DNA from: an uncultured Flavobacteriales bacterium
GTDB lineage: Bacteria > Bacteroidota > Bacteroidia > Flavobacteriales_G > Salibacteraceae
Reading direction: 5' to 3'
Assembly: GCA_913062955.1 (NCBI GenBank)
Contig: CAJXZP010000030.1
Span: forward strand, 1-43,003
DNA length: 43,003 nt
The notes under the pieces were generated by a model. That model made no database searches. It worked only from the letters and a program-made list of their open reading frames with translations, and had not been told where the DNA came from. The number at the start of each line of letters is the position of its first letter. Positions within the stretch are counted from its first letter, which is position 1. This document shows positions 1 to 43,003 of this stretch, piece after piece. Both the position numbers and the translations under genes were made by a program.

Positions 1-555
1 TAAGCCATTTCAATACGGAAATTCCGGTGAAATCTAGCATGTATTAAAGGATAAGCGAAATAGTTTTACACTGAAGAGTAGAAAGAGGCGGAAACTTTAA
101 AAGAGGGTTTCATATCCAATATCGAATAGGATACAAGTAATTTTAGTATTTCAATACGTTCTCGAATTTTGCAAATGCAAAGTTAAAACCGGAAATGCTC
201 TTTCGATTATTCATGTGCCCGCACCCTGGTGCCCCTTCCTATGCTCAAAAAACAAACCTAAATTCGGGAATAAATGTGAGGGAGTTAAGTTTTAAACTTG
301 GTGGCAAGGGGCATGGATTAATTAGCTACCTTAGTGTCGTCCATTACTAGAAATGGAAAGTGGATGTTTTTAGAAGGGGAGCAACCAGAAGATTCTAATA
401 ATAGAAGGAGATTAGAATAATAGGATTGTTATTTCAAATTTGGAGGATTTACCAATTAACATTTATGTATGGAGATCCATTGGTAAAGGAGTTTGAAGAA
501 GGAAGGAAACGGATTTGTATCCGTTGGGAATTGATTACTATTTAATACCGTTAAA
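1..555. other. Gene-free left edge
   Basis: No credible coding region on either strand. The stretch is AT-rich with many stops in all frames. The only structure noticed is a widely spaced 8-bp inverted repeat (TGCCCCTT at 230-237, AAGGGGCA at 306-313), too weak to name. It may hold the promoter of the small gene that follows and the tail of a transcript entering from outside the window. Confidence 0.5.
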
Positions 556-1092
556 ATGAATGCTTCTTTAAACTTGGATGAGTTTTTGGGTGAATTACAG
601 TTAAAGCTTCCTAAAAGCAATATGGCTCAACGAAAAGTTTTAGCTAAAAAAATAGTTGCGTATGAAATAGATGTTTTAAGCTTAACAAGTTTGCTTGAAG
701 TAGATACGATCACGGCAATGAGGTTTTCTTGGTTGTTAACCGAAATTGGAATGCTTGCTCCCGAGGTATTGAATCGGGATTTAGTTTTTCTATTTACACT
801 GAGGTCAAAGACGCTTTTCTCGGATTTTGAGAAATCCTTTTCCATGTATTGGAAAATTTGTGGTGTGCCAATTGAAAATGAATCGAAAGCTATAGAATTG
901 TTGTTCTCCTGGTTGATGAATAATACGGTTAATATTACTGTTAAATCTAGGTCTGTTGATGTATTATTGGGAATAACAAAAAAATATCCAGGTTTGAAAA
1001 ATGAATTAAAATTAATGTTAGAAGATCAGATAGTTAAACAATCGGGAGCCTATTTGGTAAAGTTAAATAGGTCTTTAAAGGATCTTAATTGA
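556..1092 (+). CDS. Hypothetical protein, mostly alpha-helical, HEAT-like
   Basis: A 178-residue soluble protein that I do not recognise. It has no signal peptide and no membrane segment. It is rich in Leu and predicted helices, with spaced amphipathic segments (for example residues 28-50, 60-80 and 108-124) reminiscent of short HEAT-like helical repeat proteins of Bacteroidota; that resemblance is an impression, not a domain match. The ATG at 556 is the natural start, and codon use matches the neighbours. It stands alone, 156 bp before the next gene and on the same strand. Confidence is good that it is a real gene and low for any function. Confidence 0.6.
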   Translation: MNASLNLDEFLGELQLKLPKSNMAQRKVLAKKIVAYEIDVLSLTSLLEVDTITAMRFSWLLTEIGMLAPEVLNRDLVFLFTLRSKTLFSDFEKSFSMYWKICGVPIENESKAIELLFSWLMNNTVNITVKSRSVDVLLGITKKYPGLKNELKLMLEDQIVKQSGAYLVKLNRSLKDLN

Positions 1093-1248
1093 TGTTTAAA
1101 TGGATTTTCCCCTCGGCTATTATGCGTTCAACTCATTCAGGTATAATTACCCTTTGATAGGGAATAGGAAATAAACACTTTTGAATCTAACCGATTTTAT
1201 AATCGAATTTAAATTTATATTAACTAATACTTTTTAAAACAATCCAAC

Positions 1249-1920
1249 ATGAGTAATTCAACAGTAACCAACGTAAGTAGTTCGACCGTAACAATTAACG
1301 ATCAAATTGTGAAAAAATGGGAAGATGCACGAACTAATGCAGCCGCTATTAAGACCATTGCAAATGCATCCGGTAACAAGTTTCAATTTAGCTTTGCGTC
1401 CACAACCGATAGTATCCATGTGTATTTAGGAGTTGACGCTAATGAAATTCTTAGCGTCACAGTAATTCCAACAAATGATGATACCATAATAAACACCCAA
1501 TGTTTAGGAATTCATTCCATTTCAGGAAGTAAAGAAACCTTATCTTCATTTGTTCCGGGTACCGGAAACGAAAATGCAATTTCCTGGGGTGTAGCGAATA
1601 CAAGAATAAATAATTGGATAGATTCAGTGAAAAGGGATGCATATATTGACGCAAGTACTGCAAGTAGTAGTGCTCCTTTAGTACTTGCATTTTATGTGGA
1701 TAAAATGGATTTTGACTTTGGAGATACACATTTTGGGTATCTTGGATTAATTGAAACAACAATTGATGGAGTAACAACTTATGCCGCAGATTTAACTATA
1801 TATAGTGAAGCTGAAGAGGCAAAATATTTAGAGGATTTGACTGTTTTAGTACCTCCGTTTAAAGGCGGTAGAGTTAGTGATCAAGCTAATTTCGGGTTAT
1901 ACAACCGAATAAATCCCTAA
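1249..1920 (+). CDS. Hypothetical protein upstream of a two-component system
   Basis: A 223-residue soluble protein of unknown function. The first 20 residues are very rich in Ser, Thr, Val and Asn with no hydrophobic signal core, so export by a standard signal peptide is unlikely. The rest looks like an alternating beta/loop protein. A stretch near the middle (LAFYVDKMDFDFGDTHFGY) is probably a conserved structural element. The start is the ATG at 1249, after an AT-rich leader. It precedes a membrane protein, a histidine kinase and a LuxR-type regulator on the same strand with short gaps, so it may be co-transcribed and may be the sensed or regulated protein (inference). I recognise no family. 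Confidence 0.6.
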   Translation: MSNSTVTNVSSSTVTINDQIVKKWEDARTNAAAIKTIANASGNKFQFSFASTTDSIHVYLGVDANEILSVTVIPTNDDTIINTQCLGIHSISGSKETLSSFVPGTGNENAISWGVANTRINNWIDSVKRDAYIDASTASSSAPLVLAFYVDKMDFDFGDTHFGYLGLIETTIDGVTTYAADLTIYSEAEEAKYLEDLTVLVPPFKGGRVSDQANFGLYNRINP

Positions 1921-1964
1921 GCAATATCGAAACTAATATTTTAACTTCAGTAGCCCCTTTTCTT

Positions 1965-2573
1965 TTGATTGGGGGTTTGCTTTACGGTGCCTGGACGTTT
2001 AAAAAACAAACGGTTCAGGGTAAGATCCTTATTGGGTTTATGTTAATTAGCCTAATAATTGATCTTATTTCGAGAGGGTATGCGAGAATGAGTATTAATA
2101 ATTTAATTCTTCTAAATGTATTAAGTTTTGCGGAGGTTTCTTTTTTCTCTTTCTTTTATTTTTCATTGGGAAAGAACAAGAAAGTGCCCGTGCTTTTAGG
2201 AAGTGTTGGGTTTCTATACGTGATTTTTGAATTCATTAATTTTGAGGATCAAAGTGTGGCACTATTTCAATCGTATTCTAAAGTAGTTGTCGCCTTTTTG
2301 ATTGTAATAATGTCTATGAATTATATCATTACTCAGATTTCAAAGGGCAAGGAAATAGAAAATAGAATCTTGAATTTGGGAATATTATTCTTTTTTTCAA
2401 TGGAGTTTATTTTGTTGCTTCCGCTGAATTACCTGATTAATTATTATTCAGAAATAGTCGGATATTTATGGTTGTTTAGAGTTTCGGTAATTATCATCTT
2501 TTATTTAATACTAATTCATTTTCTATGGAACAATGGGGAGGGGGACAGCCAGATACATTTGCAGTCTGGATAG
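1965..2573 (+). CDS. Integral membrane protein, about six TM helices, next to a histidine kinase
   Basis: A 202-residue, strongly hydrophobic protein with about six membrane-spanning segments and few charged loops, probably in the inner membrane. Its 3' end overlaps the start of the histidine kinase gene by 49 bp, so the two are very likely translated together. A role as membrane input module for the kinase is an inference. The start is uncertain: the frame has no ATG near its beginning. The first conventional start is TTG at 1965, but the frame is open back to about 1890, and the codons just upstream encode a further hydrophobic stretch (about 1938-1964, ILTSVAPFL). A rare ATT or ATA start, or translational coupling to the gene ending at 1920, is possible. 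Confidence 0.6.
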   Translation: MIGGLLYGAWTFKKQTVQGKILIGFMLISLIIDLISRGYARMSINNLILLNVLSFAEVSFFSFFYFSLGKNKKVPVLLGSVGFLYVIFEFINFEDQSVALFQSYSKVVVAFLIVIMSMNYIITQISKGKEIENRILNLGILFFFSMEFILLLPLNYLINYYSEIVGYLWLFRVSVIIIFYLILIHFLWNNGEGDSQIHLQSG

Positions 2574-3289
2574 TGTTTTCGGCAGCTTTCTTGTTGGTTT
2601 TATTAGTGTTCATCACCCTTTTAGTTCGGGCTATTTTTAAACGAATAGTTCAAGAAAGGTTAAAGGAGTCAAAAGCTAAAATGATCCATCAACAAAAATT
2701 GTTGGATACAACCATTCAGACCCAAGAAGTGGAAAGGAAAAGAATTGCTGAAGATTTGCATGATGAATTAATCGGCAAATTAATGGTGATAAAATTACGT
2801 CATGAAGCGGAATGCAATCAACAGTCTGAATTGATCTCTTTAGTGAATGAAAGTATTGAAACTGCACGAAGAATATCGCATGATTTAAGTCCTCCTTTGT
2901 TGGAGTTTACTTCATTGGCAGATTTGCTATTTGAAATGATTGATAACTGGAAGGTGAGATTTGAAATTACAACCAACTTTGACGTGCGGAAAAATGACTT
3001 GGTGAGTGATGATTTCAAAATTCAATTTTTGAGAATTACCCAGGAAACAATCACTAATATTGATAAGCATGCAAAGGCAAGTAAAATTGACTTTCATTTC
3101 AGACAGTCTCGATCTAGTGTAGCTTTAAAAATTGTGGATAATGGCGTTGGTTTTGATAAAAATGCGATAAAAATGGGCTTGGGCTTAAAAAGTATTGAGA
3201 CTAGAGTCCAGTTTTTAAAGGGTAGTTATCATTTGGATTCAAAGAAAGATATTGGGACTTCGGTTCTGTATTTTTTTAATAAATTTTAA
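2525..3289 (+). CDS. Sensor histidine kinase, HisKA_3 (NarL/DegS type)
   Basis: A 254-residue membrane-anchored kinase expected to phosphorylate the adjacent response regulator. One N-terminal membrane helix (residues about 13-34) leads into a short coiled-coil linker. The HisKA_3 dimerisation domain carries the phospho-acceptor in ERKRIAEDLHDE (His79). The ATPase domain shows an N box (QETITNIDKHAKAS), a G1 box (VDNGVGFD) and a G2 box (GLGLKSIETRV). There is no periplasmic sensing domain, so input probably comes from the membrane protein encoded just upstream. ATG 2525 lies inside the upstream gene; a GTG at 2573 touching its stop codon is an alternative, but it would trim the membrane helix. 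The response regulator begins about 10 bp after the stop. Confidence 0.92.
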   Translation: MEQWGGGQPDTFAVWIVFSAAFLLVLLVFITLLVRAIFKRIVQERLKESKAKMIHQQKLLDTTIQTQEVERKRIAEDLHDELIGKLMVIKLRHEAECNQQSELISLVNESIETARRISHDLSPPLLEFTSLADLLFEMIDNWKVRFEITTNFDVRKNDLVSDDFKIQFLRITQETITNIDKHAKASKIDFHFRQSRSSVALKIVDNGVGFDKNAIKMGLGLKSIETRVQFLKGSYHLDSKKDIGTSVLYFFNKF

Positions 3290-3300
3290 ATATTAAAGTG

Positions 3301-3975
3301 ATGGGGAAGATAAACTTAGCGATAGTAGATGATGAGGCATTAATTGTTTCCTTATTGGGTAGCTTTTTTAGTGAACAATCTGAAATCAATGTTTGCCTAA
3401 CCGCTGAAAGCGGGGAGGCATTTATTGAGCGATTAAAATCTGCAAAAGTGCGACCCGATGTTGTTCTTTTGGATTTGAAGATGAAAGGGATGAGTGGTAT
3501 TGATGTATTGGAAATTCTGCGAAAAGACTTTCCAGATATCCATGCGGTTATAATGTCTTCTCATTACAAGCAGTCCTTTACCGGATTTATGTTAAAAACA
3601 GGAGTTGCCGCTTTTATTCCGAAAGGGATTGTTTCGGATCAATTGGTTGGTATAGTCAAGGAAGTACATAACAACGGTTTTTTCTTAATGCCAGATCAGC
3701 TTAGTATTTTAAGAAATCAAGTTTCCTCTAGAGCTCCCGAACCTATTTTGAATGATAACAATGTTTTGTCGGAACGAGAGCTGGAAATCTTAAAGCTCAT
3801 TTGTTTGCAAAAAACCGCAAAGGAAATTGGTGAAGTCTTGTTTATTGCGCAAAGAACAGTGGAAGGGCATAAGAATAATTTGTTTATTAAAACGGAAACG
3901 AAGAATATTGCGGGACTAGTAATTTATGCGATTCAAAATAAAATTATTGAAGCGGATGAAATTATACTTCACTAA
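3301..3975 (+). CDS. LuxR/NarL-family response regulator
   Basis: A 224-residue DNA-binding regulator, partner of the kinase upstream. The receiver domain has the acidic pair Asp10/Asp11, phospho-acceptor Asp58 (LLDLKMKG), switch Ser86 and Lys108. The C-terminal LuxR-type helix-turn-helix starts at about residue 158 (LSERELEILKLI) with the recognition part IAQRTVEGHKNN. I chose ATG 3301 over the GTG three bases earlier. The gene ends 20 bp before a perfect hairpin terminator, so it closes the operon. NarL-type regulators usually bind inverted repeats; the repeated element at 4033-4067 and 13081-13114 is a possible target (inference). Confidence 0.93.
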   Translation: MGKINLAIVDDEALIVSLLGSFFSEQSEINVCLTAESGEAFIERLKSAKVRPDVVLLDLKMKGMSGIDVLEILRKDFPDIHAVIMSSHYKQSFTGFMLKTGVAAFIPKGIVSDQLVGIVKEVHNNGFFLMPDQLSILRNQVSSRAPEPILNDNNVLSERELEILKLICLQKTAKEIGEVLFIAQRTVEGHKNNLFIKTETKNIAGLVIYAIQNKIIEADEIILH

Positions 3976-4137: not shown

Positions 4138-4713
4138 ATGAAAAATAGCCAGTATTGTGAATCAAAAAAATTGGGCTTTGGCTTTGATGTTTCCAAATTG
4201 CAACGGGATATTGAGAAATTGAATTTTCAGAATTTCGAATATTACAATGTAATTCCCCTAAGGTCTCCTGCCCATTTGGTGGATGAATCCCTCCCATTTC
4301 CAGAATCAGTTACTGATTTTGCGGATGGTACTTGGACCGATTGGATGGATACGCCAGCCTTAAGTCAATCCCCATATTTGATGGAGGTAATAAATTATTT
4401 TAGGCAGTTTACCACCGTGAATTTAGTCCGTTTGTTACGATTGGCTCCGGGAGCAATTGTTCAGGAACATAAAGATCCTACTTTGGGTTTAGAACAAGAA
4501 AAATCGATGATTCGACTGACCATTCCAATTCAGGGAACGGAAGGGGTACATTTTTGGTTAAATGATAAAATTGTTCCTATGGCTTTGGGTGAATGTTGGT
4601 ATTTACGTTTGTCAGATCCGCATAGGGTAGCAAATAGAAGTGATAAGGAAAGAATTAATTTGACGATTGATATAATACCCAATGATTGGGTGTTCCAACA
4701 AATGGTAGAATGA
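4138..4713 (+). CDS. Aspartyl/asparaginyl beta-hydroxylase-like Fe(II)/2-oxoglutarate dioxygenase
   Basis: A 191-residue cytoplasmic protein resembling the aspartyl/asparaginyl beta-hydroxylase fold (double-stranded beta-helix, Fe(II) and 2-oxoglutarate). The metal triad is visible: His111 and Asp113 in EHKDPTLG and distal His162 in DPHRVANR. Arg172, ten residues later, is the likely 2-oxoglutarate-binding arginine. The conserved run LVRLLRLAPGAIVQEHKD is typical of the family. The substrate is unknown; bacterial relatives act on peptides, free amino acids or natural products. I chose ATG 4138 over a GTG at 4123, because the extra residues add nothing conserved. A candidate operator lies 70 bp upstream, so the gene may be controlled by the neighbouring two-component system (inference). 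Confidence 0.82.
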   Translation: MKNSQYCESKKLGFGFDVSKLQRDIEKLNFQNFEYYNVIPLRSPAHLVDESLPFPESVTDFADGTWTDWMDTPALSQSPYLMEVINYFRQFTTVNLVRLLRLAPGAIVQEHKDPTLGLEQEKSMIRLTIPIQGTEGVHFWLNDKIVPMALGECWYLRLSDPHRVANRSDKERINLTIDIIPNDWVFQQMVE

Positions 4714-28024: not shown

Positions 28025-29420
28025 ATCAATTTTTTACCTAGTCCTTTTCAGTTTTGGACTTTTTTCTAACTGTTCGTCTTCCAAGCAAGTGGCAAAACCA
28101 GCCGAAGTAGTAGGCGATCAGGGGGGCGCAAAACCTCGTTGGGTAACCAGCAGACCGACAGATTCTGGATACTACATCGGTATTGCGGTCGCTTCAAAAA
28201 CAACCACACCCACCACTTATGCTACCATGGCACAAAGGAATGCGTTAAATGAATTGGCCTCTTCCATTGAAGTTAAGGTGAAGTCCAACTCCATGTTGTT
28301 TTCTTTTGAAGAGCAAAATGCATATCGAGATGAATTTAAAGAGTTTGTCCAGGTGAAAACGAATCAAAGTATTGAGAACTATGAACTTGTAGCCACCTGG
28401 GAGAATGCCTATGAGTATTGGGTGTATTACCGGTTATCTAAAACCCAATTTCAAAAAGATAAACAGGAAAGAATTTCCAAAGCAACCGATTTATCCGTGG
28501 GTATTTTGAATCAAGCGGAACAGGAATGGAGTCTTGGAAATTATCGCATGGCCATGATTCATTTTTTTGATGCTTTAAAGCCAATAAAACCCCATTTGGG
28601 TGAGTCATTGGAAGTTACTTTAAATGGGAGTAAGGATGTTTTTTTAGGTAATTATTTATTGACCCAAATTTCCCAAGCCACCCGAGCTTTTGTATTATCT
28701 GGTAAAACCTCCATGATTGAAAATACGTGGGGGAGCCAAGTTTCTAGCGAAAAATTGACATTTCTGGTCCAGAGTCCAGAGCATAAACCTTTAGCTCAAA
28801 TCCCGGTTCAATTTACCTATTCGGAAGGATTGATTAGACCTAGAGATGGCGTGACAAGTAGCTCAGGAATGGTTTTTACGGAAATAAAAAAAATGGGGAA
28901 TACCCATACTTTACAAGAAGTAAAAGCGGTCATTGACTTTCAAGAAATGGTTTTGGGGAACGGGAGGCCAGATGAAATTGATAAACTCATTTTTGAACGT
29001 ATTTCAAACGTTTCGAGTACCATTAAAATAAAAGTGTTAGCCCCTACTATTTATATAGATGCTAAAGAATTGGCCTCTGGGAGAGGGAATACCACAACTT
29101 TAAAAAAAGCGTTTGAATTAGAAGCAAATCAATTAGGGTTTCTTTCCACTAAATCCAGAAAAGAAGCAGATTTAATTGTTGAAATTACTGCGAATACACA
29201 AAATGCGGGGGAGTCCTATGATTTGAAATATGTATACTTAAATGCACAAATTAAAGTAGTGGAACAGAAAACCCAAGCGGTAGTTTATCAAGAGGCTATT
29301 TCAAAACTCAAAGGAGTGGGTGCCACCTATAAGGAAGCTTCATTACAGGCTTATGGAAAAGCGAAAGACCAAGTAAGACAAAAGATTGTACCTCGTTTCT
29401 ACCGAAGATATACCAACTAA
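28014..29420 (+). CDS. LPP20-like lipoprotein, partner of the CsgG-like protein
   Basis: A 468-residue lipoprotein. The signal peptide leads to Cys20 (LFSNCSSSK; Asn just before the Cys is unusual). Residues about 40-150 resemble the LPP20 domain (KPRWVTSRPTDSGYYIGIAVA, AQRNALNELASSIEVKV, EYWVYYRLSKTQF). The rest is helical then beta-rich, with a late domain (about 350-460) that may be a second LPP20/CsgG-like module. ATG 28014 overlaps the previous stop (ATGAGTTATAA); an in-frame start 30 bp upstream would place extra polar residues before the signal peptide. LPP20 and CsgG-like pairs are typically outer-membrane partners. The stop overlaps that of xerD by 4 bp. Confidence 0.8.
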   Translation: MSYKSIFYLVLFSFGLFSNCSSSKQVAKPAEVVGDQGGAKPRWVTSRPTDSGYYIGIAVASKTTTPTTYATMAQRNALNELASSIEVKVKSNSMLFSFEEQNAYRDEFKEFVQVKTNQSIENYELVATWENAYEYWVYYRLSKTQFQKDKQERISKATDLSVGILNQAEQEWSLGNYRMAMIHFFDALKPIKPHLGESLEVTLNGSKDVFLGNYLLTQISQATRAFVLSGKTSMIENTWGSQVSSEKLTFLVQSPEHKPLAQIPVQFTYSEGLIRPRDGVTSSSGMVFTEIKKMGNTHTLQEVKAVIDFQEMVLGNGRPDEIDKLIFERISNVSSTIKIKVLAPTIYIDAKELASGRGNTTTLKKAFELEANQLGFLSTKSRKEADLIVEITANTQNAGESYDLKYVYLNAQIKVVEQKTQAVVYQEAISKLKGVGATYKEASLQAYGKAKDQVRQKIVPRFYRRYTN

Positions 29421-30319
29421 CTTCGGGGATGGAACTGGATAATGGCATCCAGTAAATCGGCTTGGTTTAAATGAGTGTAAATCTCGGTAGTGGTGATCGA
29501 TTCATGGCCCAACATATCTTGGATGGCCCGTAAATCAGCTCCCCGTTGCAACAACTCTGTCGCAAAAGAATGACGTAAGGTATGGGGACTAATATTCTTT
29601 TTGATTCCTGCCTTTTCCGTAAGCGTTTTAATAATAGTGAAAATCATAACCCGAGTTAATTGCTTTCCTCTTCTATTTAAAAACAAAAAATCTTCCTGTC
29701 CTTTTTGAACCGGTACATGGATACGGACTTCCTTCATATATAGAAGAATATGCTTTTTTGCCATTCCACCTAAAGGAACGAGTCTTTGTTTATCCCCTTT
29801 GCCAGTCACTCGAATAAATTCATCTTCAAAATAAATATTCGATATTTTAAGGTTTACTAGTTCGCTTACCCGTAAACCACACCCATATAAAACTTCAATT
29901 ATCGCTAAATTTCGTTCTCCTTCTGGTTTACTACGATCAATTTGTTTCAGGAGTAATTCCACTTCCTCATTGCTTAAAGTATCTGGTAATTTTCTTCCTA
30001 CTCGAGCGGTTTCAATCAATTCGGCCGGATTATTATCTATGATGTCATCCATCAGCAAGAATTTGTAAAATGCTTTGATGCCCGAAAGAATACGGTTTTG
30101 AGAAGTAATCGCTAATCCAAGTGCCGTAACGTAATGTAGAAAACCTCGAATGTGTTCGGTAGTTACTCGGGTAGGCGACACATTTGGATATTCCATTTCC
30201 ATAAACTGTTCCAATTTATTTAAATCTTCTAGGTAACCTACCAAAGTATTTTCGGATAAAGAACGCTCTATCCGTAAATAGGCTTTGAACTCATTTTTAT
30301 AGACATTCCAATTTGACAT
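29417..30319 (-). CDS. xerD: Site-specific tyrosine recombinase XerD
   Basis: A 300-residue recombinase expected to resolve chromosome dimers at dif with a Xer partner or alone. The N-terminal SAM-like DNA-binding domain covers about residues 1-90. The catalytic set is complete: Arg150 (CGLRVSEL), Lys174 (GKGDKQR), His246 and Arg249 (HTLRHSFATELL), His272 (LGHESITTT) and nucleophile Tyr281 (IYTHL). The length and the absence of the extra helix typical of integron integrases identify it as housekeeping XerD rather than IntI. It lies 10 kb from the cassette-like array, so linkage is weak. Confidence 0.93.
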   Translation of the reverse strand: MSNWNVYKNEFKAYLRIERSLSENTLVGYLEDLNKLEQFMEMEYPNVSPTRVTTEHIRGFLHYVTALGLAITSQNRILSGIKAFYKFLLMDDIIDNNPAELIETARVGRKLPDTLSNEEVELLLKQIDRSKPEGERNLAIIEVLYGCGLRVSELVNLKISNIYFEDEFIRVTGKGDKQRLVPLGGMAKKHILLYMKEVRIHVPVQKGQEDFLFLNRRGKQLTRVMIFTIIKTLTEKAGIKKNISPHTLRHSFATELLQRGADLRAIQDMLGHESITTTEIYTHLNQADLLDAIIQFHPRS

Positions 30320-40130: not shown

Positions 40131-40586
40131 ATGGCTAAGTCTCAAGAAACATTTGGTAAAAAAGAAAGAGAAAAGAAACGTTTGAAAAAACGTCAAGAAA
40201 AAGCACTTTTAAAAGAAGAGCGTAAAGCGAATAAGGAAAAAGGACTTTCTTTCGAAGATCAAATTGCCTATGTGGATGAATTTGGCCAATTAACCGATAC
40301 TCCACCAGATCCAACAAAAAAGGTAGAGGTAGAACTAGATAGCATTATGCTAGGCGCTGCATCTCGTGAACCAGAAGAAGAAGTGGATCCTGTACACAAA
40401 GGACGTGTAGAATTCTTTAACGATAGTAAAGGATATGGTTTCATTAAAGATATGAAAGATGGCGAAAAGTACTTTGTACACATGAGTGGTTTAATTGACA
40501 CGATTGTAGAAAACAACATGGTTACTTTTGAACTAGAAAGAGGAATGAAAGGAATGAATGCAGTAAAAGTAAAACTGGATAAATAA
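40131..40586 (+). CDS. Cold-shock domain protein with long charged N-terminal extension
   Basis: A 151-residue single-stranded nucleic-acid binder. The C-terminal cold-shock domain (about 88-150) has both RNA-binding motifs, KGYGFI (100-105) and YFVHMS (114-119). Before it lies an 85-residue extension. Its first 40 residues are extremely rich in Lys, Arg and Glu and likely helical; the middle is acidic. Ordinary cold-shock proteins have only the 65-70-residue domain. The extension could tether RNA or ribosomes (inference). It is monocistronic, with its own promoter box and terminator, and is the last core gene before the cassette-like array. Confidence 0.9.
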   Translation: MAKSQETFGKKEREKKRLKKRQEKALLKEERKANKEKGLSFEDQIAYVDEFGQLTDTPPDPTKKVEVELDSIMLGAASREPEEEVDPVHKGRVEFFNDSKGYGFIKDMKDGEKYFVHMSGLIDTIVENNMVTFELERGMKGMNAVKVKLDK

Positions 40587-40641: not shown

Positions 40642-40851
40642 GCATTGTATTTTCATGTTGTTGCGATTTTGTTTTAAATTGCATGCTCCGATTAACCTAC
40701 GGTTTTTCACCCGAAGCCATGTATATTGGCCCCGTTAATCGACATTAAACGTTTATAAGTGTTTACACTCGTTTACAAACGTTTGTTGTCGGCTTTTGGT
40801 AGAAAAATAAGTGATAGCGGGTGTTTTGGAATGAATAATATAAATGAATAG

Positions 40852-40877
40852 CCGTAGAATAAACGTTTAATCTACGG
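40852..40877. repeat. 26-bp dyad symmetry with a central AAACGTTT
   Basis: CCGTAGA (40852-40858) and TCTACGG (40871-40877) flank TAAACGTTTA (40860-40869). The 26 bp are palindromic apart from the single symmetric pair 40859/40870 (A opposite A). It could be an operator or a hairpin. Confidence 0.75.
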
Positions 40878-40901
40878 TTAAAATAAAATATACATATAGC
40901 A

Positions 40902-40927
40902 GATATATCACACTAGTGTGATATATC
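40902..40927. repeat. Perfect 26-bp palindrome
   Basis: GATATATCACACT is followed immediately by its exact reverse complement, with no loop. It ends 5 bp before the GTTGTAC heptamer. No T-tract follows, so it is not a normal terminator; a protein-binding site or recombination accessory site is more likely (inference). Confidence 0.85.
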
Positions 40928-40932
40928 CGGTT

Positions 40933-40939
40933 GTTGTAC
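40933..40939 (+). other. GTTGTAC cassette boundary heptamer (attI-like or attC end)
   Basis: GTTGTAC lies exactly 12 nt before the ATG of the first cassette-like gene. The same heptamer with the same spacing precedes the second gene. No inverted partner GTACAAC exists between the cold-shock gene and this site, so it marks the entry side of the array. Confidence 0.55.
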
Positions 40940-40951
40940 GCAAGCAGGAAA

Positions 40952-41428
40952 ATGAAAATTTCGATGATATTATTTATTTTTTTATTCCATACTAGTCTTG
41001 GACTAATAAATTCGGATTTCGATAGTCCATTTATGAAAAGTGATTTTATCAAAATCTACCAAGATTTCGGGAAAAAGGCAAAGCCCAACGGACTAATTTG
41101 CTCAGTGCAAATTGATAATAAGGGAATGATGTATCAGCTAAAGGTAAATGCGCCAATAAATTCAATTGAGGATGGAAAAGTCGTTTATGTGTGTGATAGT
41201 TGTTCAGAAAACCGAGGGAAAATTATCACAATCGAATATCCAGAAAATTTAAAAGTCTCTTATTACCATTTGGACACAATAATTGTTTCCGAAAATCAAC
41301 TGGTGAAAAAAGGAGAGCAAATTGGAGTGTCAGGAATATCCGGAAGAACAGTTGTTAATTGTCTTGGAGTTCGGGTGGAAAGGAATGATTCGATAATAAA
41401 TCCATCGAATATAATAAAACGAGAATAG
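40952..41428 (+). CDS. Exported M23-like (LytM) domain protein lacking zinc ligands
   Basis: A 158-residue protein. A signal peptide (MKISMILFIFLFHTSLG) sends it to the periplasm. Residues about 65-155 follow the M23/LytM beta fold: APINSIEDGKVVYV, GKIITIEYP, VSYYHLDTI, VKKGEQIGVSGISG. His106 in YYHL remains, but the expected HxxxD and HLHFE zinc ligands are absent; NCLGVRVER (136-144) stands where HLHFEV is expected. It is probably a non-catalytic domain that binds cell wall or regulates other hydrolases, as degenerate LytM factors do (inference). ATG 40952 was chosen over a TTG at 40931, which would run through the boundary heptamer. It is the first cassette-like gene. Confidence 0.72.
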   Translation: MKISMILFIFLFHTSLGLINSDFDSPFMKSDFIKIYQDFGKKAKPNGLICSVQIDNKGMMYQLKVNAPINSIEDGKVVYVCDSCSENRGKIITIEYPENLKVSYYHLDTIIVSENQLVKKGEQIGVSGISGRTVVNCLGVRVERNDSIINPSNIIKRE

Positions 41429-41433
41429 CCAGC

Positions 41434-41621
41434 GTACAACAATCTCTATATTTAATGCTTAAAAATGGGGTTAGGAAAGTCCTTCTCTCGTAGTCCGTTA
41501 AAGTGTATTTTTGGATTTTAACCGATGAAATATTAAAACAAAAAACACACGTTAACTCGGTTCGTGCACTTCCGAAAGCTTCGCCTTTTGAAAGCGCACT
41601 AAACATAGAGTGGCGTTGTAC
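41434..41621 (+). repeat. attC-like foldback site between two cassette-like genes
   Basis: 188 bp bounded by the inverted heptamers GTACAAC (41434-41440) and GTTGTAC (41615-41621). Inside them, CTCTATATTTAATGC (41444-41458) pairs with 41596-41610 at 13 of 15 positions, with unequal spacers (3 and 4 nt). Further in, 41495-41513 pairs with 41539-41560 through a bulged stem. The apical loop is about 25 nt. The whole sequence folds end to end as one imperfect hairpin with unpaired bases, the hallmark architecture of integron attC sites. The heptamers differ from the canonical core (GTTRRRY) at one position. Confidence 0.72.
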
Positions 41622-41633
41622 ACAATTAACAAA

Positions 41634-42908
41634 ATGAACGAAACAGATATAATATCAATAGAAGAGTTGAGAAATGAAATCATTCAATTCAATAATGATA
41701 TGAATGTTCAAAAACTTGAAAACCTTTATCACTCAAAGTCATTTTCAGAAATCATAGGTGTTAGCAGAAAAGAATTAGTACACAGCAATTTCATAGCTTG
41801 GATATTAAATGAAAATGAAAGTCATTCTTTGGGGAAATTTCCAATTCAAAAATTTCTTGAATTATTAGTAATTCACTCTAAAGAAATTCAATTAAAAAAA
41901 CACAAAGAATTATTTGACACAATAATCGTTTCGGACTATAAACTATCTGATTTACAAATTGAAACTGAAAAATCAATTACTAATGTAGGGCGGGTTGACA
42001 TATTCATTGAATCGAAAATTTCATACTTAGGAAAAGACAAGAAACTGAAAATTGTGGTTGAAAATAAAGTTGGTACAAAAGAACATAGTGACCAAACAAC
42101 CAAATACTTCAATCATTTTGATTCTACAAAACAACAAGAGGATATAATCCTATATGTGTTTTTAACTCCAATATCAGGTTTGGAACTAATCGAATTAACT
42201 GAACCTGAATGCAGTTCAAAAGAATTTGTCCAAATCAATTATCAATCTATGGTTGATTTCCTTTTTGAACCTGCTATCAAAAAAAATATACCCGACAGAA
42301 CAAAAACAATTATTACTGAATATTTACAGTCTTTAAGTCAACCAACTTTGGACAAAGACGAAGATGAATACAAACGAGGACTAATTATGGCTTTAGGAAC
42401 AGACGAAAGAAATCTATTAACAAAATTCTGGGACAAAAATCAGAAGTTAATTCTTGCAGCATTATATGCAATTAGTTCAGACCCAGAACAGGATAAAGAT
42501 GTTCGAGACAATGCGACTACCGCCCTTGCCAACTTATCTAACTCAAATAAAGACAGAAGCCTATATTCAATTTCCTACAATGGAAATATCGAAATTGAGA
42601 AAATAAAAAAATCTGATATAGGACTTTCAACCATAAACATTCTTGATAAGCACGATTTAATTAATGAAGAAACCTTCAAGTTTTTAAGTACAGACAAGAC
42701 TTGTAGTTTTCAATTAGTTAAAAAGTTAGAAGAAGTAACAGAAAACGAAAAGAAGTACGGGAAATATCGTATAAACTCAGAGACGGAGTTGTTTTTCAAT
42801 GACAACGAATATTTTGTAGCTAGAAATTGGGGAAAACAGAACACAGATAAGTTTATAAAGAAAATGTCCAAAAAATTTAGTGCCTTAAAATATGAAAATC
42901 ATAGTTAA
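41634..42908 (+). CDS. PD-(D/E)XK nuclease family protein (PDDEXK_4-like)
   Basis: A 424-residue protein. The N-terminal half matches the PDDEXK_4 type: ELVHSNFIAWILNENESHSLG (about 47-67), the nuclease core NVGRVDIF (Asp122) and IVVENKVG (Glu143 and Lys145), and the following Gln154 and Tyr158 (QTTKY). All expected catalytic residues are present. The C-terminal 200 residues are helical and unassigned. Such nucleases are frequent in accessory and defence regions, but the role here is not shown. ATG 41634 was chosen over a GTG at 41610, which would run through the boundary heptamer. It is the second cassette-like gene; its composition is more AT-rich than the core genes. Confidence 0.85.
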   Translation: MNETDIISIEELRNEIIQFNNDMNVQKLENLYHSKSFSEIIGVSRKELVHSNFIAWILNENESHSLGKFPIQKFLELLVIHSKEIQLKKHKELFDTIIVSDYKLSDLQIETEKSITNVGRVDIFIESKISYLGKDKKLKIVVENKVGTKEHSDQTTKYFNHFDSTKQQEDIILYVFLTPISGLELIELTEPECSSKEFVQINYQSMVDFLFEPAIKKNIPDRTKTIITEYLQSLSQPTLDKDEDEYKRGLIMALGTDERNLLTKFWDKNQKLILAALYAISSDPEQDKDVRDNATTALANLSNSNKDRSLYSISYNGNIEIEKIKKSDIGLSTINILDKHDLINEETFKFLSTDKTCSFQLVKKLEEVTENEKKYGKYRINSETELFFNDNEYFVARNWGKQNTDKFIKKMSKKFSALKYENHS

Positions 42909-42916
42909 AAAACTGT

Positions 42917-43003
42917 GTACAACACGGTATATAGCAAATAGGGCGTTCGGTGGTTTACGAAAGTTCAGTGCTATTTACCAACACCGCCAAATCGTTGATT
43001 TGG
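42917..43003 (+). repeat. Left arm of a second attC-like site, cut by the window end
   Basis: GTACAAC (42917-42923) begins 8 nt after the nuclease stop codon. Within the arm, CGGTGGT and ACCAACACCG form a bulged stem. The last 17 bases, CCAAATC-GTT-GATTTGG (42987-43003), are a perfect 7-bp hairpin. The matching GTTGTAC and next gene would lie beyond the window. Confidence 0.6.

Follow-up and report, generated by a model that had tools for sequence, protein, structure and literature searches.

At the end of contig C30 from an uncultured Flavobacteriales bacterium, two genes on the same strand are each flanked by the inverted heptamers GTTGTAC and GTACAAC. The question raised by this locus is whether the two genes are mobile cassettes and, if so, which recombinase would move them and at which sites. 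The window analysed here is the entire contig C30 (43,003 bp) of a 131-contig draft genome, and the array is therefore truncated and runs off the end. From sequence alone, and without any experiment, we consider it likely that the window genes are mobile cassettes of a Bacteroidia integron lineage that works without I2, the insertion specific to IntI.

Organization of the array in the window

The array and its surroundings contain the following features.

40131..40586, +, cold-shock domain gene (PF00313); flank outside the system and last gene of conserved synteny before the array
40849..40880, +, imperfect palindrome with the AAACGTTTA motif, found by inverted-repeat search just before the attI-like site
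40902..40932, +, attI-like site: 26-bp perfect palindrome GATATATCACACTAGTGTGATATATC (40902-40927, arm 13) and spacer CGGTT, directly before the GTT of the first cassette
40933..41614, +, cassette 1, running from its own GTT as far as the following GTT (not included); its start GTTGTACGC and the stretch GCGTACAAC at 41432-41440 are reverse complements
40952..41428, +, gene of cassette 1, M23 family peptidase (PF01551, 2e-15)
41432..41621, +, attC-like site 1: R'' GCGTACAAC, spacer AAT, L'' CTCTAT, 174-nt body, L' ATAGAG, spacer TGGC, R' GTTGTAC
41615..43003, +, cassette 2, incomplete at the contig end; GTTGTACACAAT at its start, ACTGTGTACAAC at its end (42923)
41634..42908, +, gene of cassette 2, PD-(D/E)XK nuclease superfamily (PDDEXK_4; PF14281, 2.3e-23)
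42914..43003, +, 5' portion of attC-like site 2, truncated where the contig stops: R'' TGTGTACAAC, spacer ACG, L'' GTATAT...

GTTGTAC is located at 40933-40939 and 41615-41621, exactly 12 nt before the ATGs at 40952 and 41634, and GTACAAC at 41434-41440 and 42917-42923, 5 nt behind the stop at 41428 and 8 nt behind the stop at 42908. The coordinates and distances given in a preliminary description, made from the letters of the window, were all correct. The bare heptamer was not enriched in the window (6 copies versus 3.4 expected; 10 of 100 shuffles had as many). What stood above chance there was not the heptamer alone but longer flank matches specific to each cassette. Cassette 1 is flanked by GTTGTACGC...GCGTACAAC, a 9-nt reverse-complement match, and cassette 2 by GTTGTACACA...TGTGTACAAC, a 10-nt match that was recovered independently as inverted repeat I6 (13 nt at 92%). 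Between the two genes lies a 174-nt body that folds back on itself and whose L box, CTCTAT/ATAGAG, carries an A.C mismatch.

The 3' end of the window (42901-43003) matched 14 of 100 relatives over 83-103 nt at 86-98%, beside unrelated genes, and many of these matches to attC-like site 2 are complete foldback sites of about 180 nt. When a sample of 395 Bacteroidia genomes was searched, none but the own genome had a match to the PDDEXK gene of cassette 2; its occurrence in other species was accordingly dropped as evidence of movement.

A tyrosine recombinase beside related cassettes

Contig C57 of the same genome carries a gene for a 382-aa tyrosine recombinase. Directly behind it are 39 nt holding the palindrome GATATATCACATATGATATATC, the same palindromic attI-like element as in the window, and then cassettes, in the order GTTACCACA, 290-aa gene, TGTGGTAAC, 234-nt foldback, GTTGGTGTTC, second gene, GAACACCAAC, 235-nt foldback. 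Both cassettes obey the GTT/AAC complementarity rule described below. The C57 gene is the sole intact match of its family in this genome, whose other tyrosine recombinases are XerD, one further intact gene and one broken fragment. A recombinase fragment with two in-frame TAG stops lies at a contig end (G000:C52:141-530, L070).

The catalytic residues R237, K262, R329, H352 and Y361 are invariant in 24 homologues. An alignment with four IntI and three Xer proteins showed that the I2 insertion (HEKDL...EWRWQWVFP and the following block, around patch III in IntI) is missing, and that about 95 residues at the N-terminus are extra relative to both IntI and Xer. The I2 gap was seen in the C57 protein, in those of G001, L143 and L163 and in three wider-family proteins, aligned with the four IntI. 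Since it lacks the IntI-specific I2 and has an extra N-terminal domain, the recombinase is not IntI, and no IntI was found elsewhere in its own genome. The IntI model TIGR02249 gave 182-206 bits against a cut-off of 265, matching in two stretches; it was rejected as proof of IntI, as relatives gave only partial matches and none over the cut-off. The XerD model gave 184-198 bits (cut-off 329.6) and the XerC model 176-198 bits (cut-off 335). By score the best NCBIfam model was XerA (NF040815), with 213 bits for the C57 protein and 238 and 234 bits for two others against a cut-off of 220. This model is not specific, because the true XerD of the window also passes it (232 bits).

That XerD (29417-30319) is the only tyrosine recombinase in the window and is typical of its kind, as had been described. 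It was rejected as the enzyme of the array, being a standard XerD with 332 bits against the XerD cut-off of 329.6. The preliminary description had proposed looking for an IntI-like or unusual recombinase; such a gene was found on C57, and it is not IntI-like in the defining sense, that is, it has no I2 insertion.

An AlphaFold2 model of the recombinase (pLDDT 82.6) matched the folds of XerA (VIA Z 23.8) and IntI4 (Z 21.4), both over residues of about 105-380. In a tree the recombinase branches with IntI, apart from XerC/XerD, but only three Xer rows were included, long branches meet, and the order inside the group of IntI and the recombinase is unresolved. The N-terminal domain alone gave weak fold matches to the XPB damage-recognition domain (Z 6.1), aIF1 (6.1) and HARP (4.3); these scores lie within the range of common arrangements and point to no clear relative. 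In L143 the N-terminal residues, about 95, form a conserved domain (LPNPKWSKE...F.G.AWIN) without a Pfam match.

The recombinase and the window array are on different contigs (C57 and C30). As far as a draft genome can tell, the window array is probably either served in trans by the C57 enzyme or a relic; any action of that enzyme on C30 is inferred.

The attI-like site

The 26-bp palindrome at 40902-40927 was missed in the preliminary description. In the window this attI-like site has no recombinase gene and adjoins two cassettes. Palindromes are enriched behind recombinase genes of the family, with arms of at least 8 in 8 of 18 loci and in 12 of 1325 control stretches. That attI is used in double-stranded form is an inference.

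A motif similar to AAACGTTTA is found upstream of the C57 recombinase gene (ATTAAACGTTTAAATATACGGTTATTTTATTTTATA). Because the AAACGTTTA motif also precedes the C57 gene, we infer that a recombinase gene was lost between the motif and attI in the window; the stretch at 40849..40880 might then be the promoter region of the lost gene, which is again an inference. Repeats of the window attI-region stretch (the area of 40849..40880) also occur on C54, C31 and C82. On C82 (L007, 2600-14500), at least 8 copies of a repeat of about 450 bp end in an attI-like palindrome with AAACGTTTA. Most of the copies precede a different gene each, and no recombinase is present there. Decayed attC-like pieces lie at 4365, 6328, 9392 and 10443 on the same contig, and the region resembles an array that is old or built differently.

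The cassette boundary rule

Every cassette starts with GTT and 6-7 variable bases and ends, before its own foldback, with the reverse complement (...AAC). GTTGTAC is merely the version common to the two cassettes of the window. The view that GTACAAC...GTTGTAC is a fixed non-canonical core therefore failed, as the heptamer varies by cassette and only GTT/AAC is constant. A chain search behind recombinase genes followed up to five successive cassettes per locus. Among 38 cassettes there were 34 distinct 10-mers at the start, the constant part being only GTT/AAC; the cassettes were chosen for GTT/AAC, so that it is present in 38/38. Cassette lengths had a median of 852 nt (range 475-3448, n=38). 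Open reading frames of at least 50 aa were present in 34 cassettes and all 34 read in one direction. The cassettes are thus short, mostly with one gene on one strand, and some carry several genes. The canonical box RYYYAAC/GTTRRRY was fitted by 8 of the 38 boundaries, e.g. GCCCAAC...GTTAGGC in L091. Position 11 of the R arm shows the same opposition of A and C as the L box described below: every start has A there, and 27/38 ends have C.

In 34 sites, the cassette end paired with the start of its own cassette over a mean of 9.6 nt and with the neighbour's start over 4.0 nt, 3 of which are forced by the search. The mean of 9.6 nt is biased upward because the boundaries in the chain analysis were picked by complementarity, and the unbiased test of the rule is that of the first cassette. 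It requires that the first 130 bp behind the recombinase gene contain a GTT start to which some AAC end further downstream is complementary over 9 nt or more. Core loci, defined by at least 50% identity to the C57 protein, met it in 16 of 21 cases versus 31 of 518 control windows in the same DNA, and the wider family in 8 of 17 versus 3 of 106, with controls that include real later cassettes. Roughly one in four core loci for which sufficient sequence was available had no clear first cassette. Own-cassette complementarity and the co-occurrence of cassettes with the recombinase are thereby shown.

A literal search of the own genome for GTACAAC and GTTGTAC separated by 80 to 140 nt gave 0 matches, as the heptamers stand 174 nt apart and the arms are variable, and counts of the single heptamer in small contigs gave no signal. 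The expectation in the preliminary description that the heptamers would be enriched as paired flanks of accessory genes fails as literally worded; it passes when corrected to the complementarity rule and the strict foldback signature.

Foldback sites

The usual order in a site is AAC, a 3-nt spacer, a 6-nt L'' (mostly NNNTAT), L' (ATANNN), 4-6 nt and GTT, with 46-235 nt between R'' and the next GTT. Spacers of 3 and 4-6 nt were found in 31 of 34 sites. The L boxes covary: 201 of 204 positions are Watson-Crick pairs, whereas L' boxes exchanged among sites gave a mean of 126 and a maximum of 147. Just inside the L box, A faces C in 29/34 sites as a 1x1 mismatch, which reads T opposite G on the bottom strand. 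In 33/34 sites the bottom strand forms the more stable fold, by a mean of -4.0 kcal/mol. The anatomy of the sites, the covariation of the stem and the strand bias are shown; that the bottom strand is used as a folded single strand is a likely inference for which there is no bench test.

The attC-like site 1 of the window follows the L-box rule, and a near copy of it is present on C56 beside another gene and with another R arm. In the 668 kb of own-genome sequence searched, 4 sites met the strict foldback signature, where 0.33 would be expected if the sequence were random; the site inventory of this genome is partial, as only these 668 kb of sequence were covered. A first, loose foldback detector was dropped since it gave many chance matches in coding DNA, and the chain test and the strict signature were used instead. 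No Rfam family matched in the window or in three related loci. Absence of attC from Rfam is to be expected. The C56 array (L235-L236, 19.0-23.4 kb) reaches the contig end, and one of its attC-like sites ends in GTGTGATATAGCCGCTT, which resembles one half of the attI palindrome.

Distribution in Bacteroidia

The order of recombinase, palindrome, cassette and foldback recurs across Bacteroidia, isolates included (Aquimarina, Algibacter, Arenibacter). At E 1e-60 or better, the family profile matched 197 of 395 Bacteroidia genomes. About 17 of the 197 are near the core and the rest hold more distant relatives, about half of which, where tested, were cassette-linked within the short flanks examined. 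Named loci are from Aquimarina, Algibacter lectus, Arenibacter, Kordia, Flammeovirga, Marivirga, Cyclobacteriaceae and Saprospiraceae. G011 and G001 have the same order as the C57 locus with other sequences. In G001, a single-contig genome of the same genus, one of the sites matched by the 3' end of the window lies about 0.9 kb from a tyrosine recombinase gene. With a candidate recombinase on C57 and related arrays across Bacteroidia, the claim of an array of single-gene mobile cassettes served by an integron-type recombinase encoded elsewhere is supported.

Integron surveys found almost none in Bacteroidetes proper; for this group IntegronFinder 2.0 reported, beyond the In0 elements known earlier, one complete integron in Salinibacter (PMC9024848). 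In a whole-phylum sample, true IntI passed its cut-off in 105 of 395 genomes, and only one listed match was inside the class Bacteroidia.

A second array in G001 (L128:407-694, G001:C1 about 656400) stands behind only the last 95 or so codons of a recombinase gene, and this truncated platform still holds at least 3 cassettes.

Array differences at the GTT of attI

The metagenome contig L147 and G001 share a recombinase and attI that are 99.1% identical over 1593 nt, and their arrays differ from the GTT of attI on. G001 has one extra cassette of about 0.7 kb in first place; the cassette behind it is homologous, at 92.9%, to the one that comes first in L147. This exact array difference between two genomes is shown; gain or loss of cassettes at GTT rests on this one pair, one member of which is a metagenome assembly. 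The preliminary description would have been refuted if the same genes kept their order and spacing in all relatives. This was not the case: in G002, of the same genus, synteny is kept up to the cold-shock gene, followed by a different gene and no array, and the PDDEXK gene is missing from all other genomes of the Bacteroidia sample.

The 99%-identical block of recombinase and attI (L147:1055, G001:C1 near 1441249) starts about 400 bp before the gene. Because its surroundings differ in L147 and G001, the platform itself may also move. The homologous cassettes (92.9%; L147:4949 and L123 of G001, the GTTATGCCC cassette) have the same R'' GGGCATAAC and attC bodies of 53 nt and 116 nt, as if the hairpin part had possibly been exchanged separately from the gene.

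Proposed mechanism and relation to known systems

In the proposed mechanism, a cassette would be a circle with one foldback attC, its arms in the order R''-L''...L'-R'. A dedicated tyrosine recombinase, of which a copy is on C57, would insert and excise this circle, acting on the GTT either of attI or of a further attC. Insertion at GTT would therefore draw the first 10 or so nucleotides of the linear cassette from the same R arm as the last 10. That this recombinase family is the enzyme, and that it catalyses attI x attC and attC x attC recombination, is inferred. It is our speculation that the N-terminal domain of about 95 residues may replace I2 in substrate recognition.

The system is integron-like in operation because it has cassettes with one foldback each, an attachment site, a dedicated recombinase and precise exchange at GTT. 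Like IntI integrons, it has a tyrosine recombinase gene directly beside the attachment site and cassette array (on C57 and in relatives, not in the window), single-gene same-strand cassettes with the boundary at GTT, R/L-arm foldbacks with asymmetric unpaired spacers (3 vs 4-6 nt) and a variable top, 9-10 nt of R-arm complementarity, and a bottom strand that folds better. It is not a strict member of the IntI family, since the defining insertion is missing and most boundaries misfit the canonical box. Unlike IntI, the Bacteroidia recombinase has no I2 and has the N-terminal extension. The sites differ from IntI attC in the L box NNNTAT/ATANNN and in a conserved A.C mismatch that apparently stands in for a clear one-sided extrahelical G; further differences from IntI integrons are the few boundaries fitting RYYYAAC/GTTRRRY (8/38), an attI that is often a perfect palindrome, and the host class Bacteroidia. 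With XerC/XerD and archaeal XerA the recombinase shares a core-binding and a catalytic domain without I2, and with XerA also the best NCBIfam score (213-238 bits, cut-off 220) and the top fold match. It differs from all three in the N-terminal domain and in being a dedicated gene before an attI-like site and cassettes.

One objection is the loss of I2, which argues against recombination of folded single-stranded DNA because I2 is reported to be essential for attC recombination by IntI (PMC7790495, PMC8138268). The separate contigs of recombinase and window array, and the fact that XerA is the named model closest to the enzyme by score, also count against our reading. The I2 helix is reported in no other protein and is treated as the innovation that enabled integrons (PMC7790495). 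The paper on a subgroup of integron-like tyrosine recombinases, from which the present system differs, calls the insertion essential for integron function (PMC8138268), and its relevant passages describe no cassette arrays for members without the insertion.

Alternative explanations

The explanation closest to ours keeps the same cassettes and recombinase but has a double-stranded core exchanged in the manner of Xer, with an R'-L' core and cleavage at G^TT, the foldback being secondary and serving, for example, in regulation or transcription termination. It remains possible, and the missing I2, the Xer/XerA-like fold (Z 23.8 for XerA, 21.4 for IntI4) and the perfectly palindromic attI speak for it. 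However, covarying L arms 46-235 nt apart would then have no clear purpose, nor would the fixed A.C mismatch (G.T on the bottom strand) or the preference for the bottom strand that 33/34 sites show. A canonical integron or CALIN, on which IntI acts or acted and in which ordinary attC boxes have drifted, would account for the same layout and for the 8/38 fitting boundaries; 9-11 nt of R-arm complementarity and use of the bottom strand are known for canonical attC (PMC2727003). We regard it as very unlikely, however: the own genome has no IntI, nearly all IntI of the phylum sample are outside the class Bacteroidia, and the recombinase directly in front of the arrays is a different one, without the IntI insertion and with 182-206 bits where the cut-off is 265.

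Also very unlikely in our judgement are modules moved by the host XerC/XerD proteins (pdif-type gene modules or IMEX). XerD is indeed encoded in the window (29417-30319) and the attI palindrome resembles the core site of a tyrosine recombinase, but the arrays are linked to a dedicated recombinase that is not a Xer protein, and the sites are long foldbacks with cassette-specific arms rather than a conserved dif-like pair of about 28 bp. Finally, contig ends and C82 are full of dispersed repeats, so that non-mobile repeats or terminators flanking genes by chance might be suspected. This is all but excluded by the own-cassette complementarity, the single orientation in 34/34, the linkage to the recombinase and the exact array difference at GTT.

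The integron reading can be taken further. On balance we lean, by a small margin, towards the view that widespread Bacteroidia integrons recombine attC as folded single-stranded DNA with a recombinase that never had I2, that the hairpin would be recognised otherwise, perhaps by the N-terminal domain, that the recombinase would be a sister or outlying branch of IntI, and that I2 would not be required. No published description of such a Bacteroidia system was found in the literature searched, with preprints and most subscription papers outside the search. Software that relies on IntI and standard attC can be expected to overlook it. If the reading is true, a large and independent cassette-building family without I2 is either a second way of recombining single strands or the survivor of an earlier state, the origin of integrons becomes directly testable, and a gene-capture platform is added to a class where integron surveys found almost nothing.

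The cassettes carry diverse accessory genes, some of them unique to one species in the sample. A 2.27-kb cassette of G001 (L123, 11800-14100, minus strand) contains several genes which, judged by eye, apparently encode an ArsR-type regulator, a MerT-like protein and a cation transporter.
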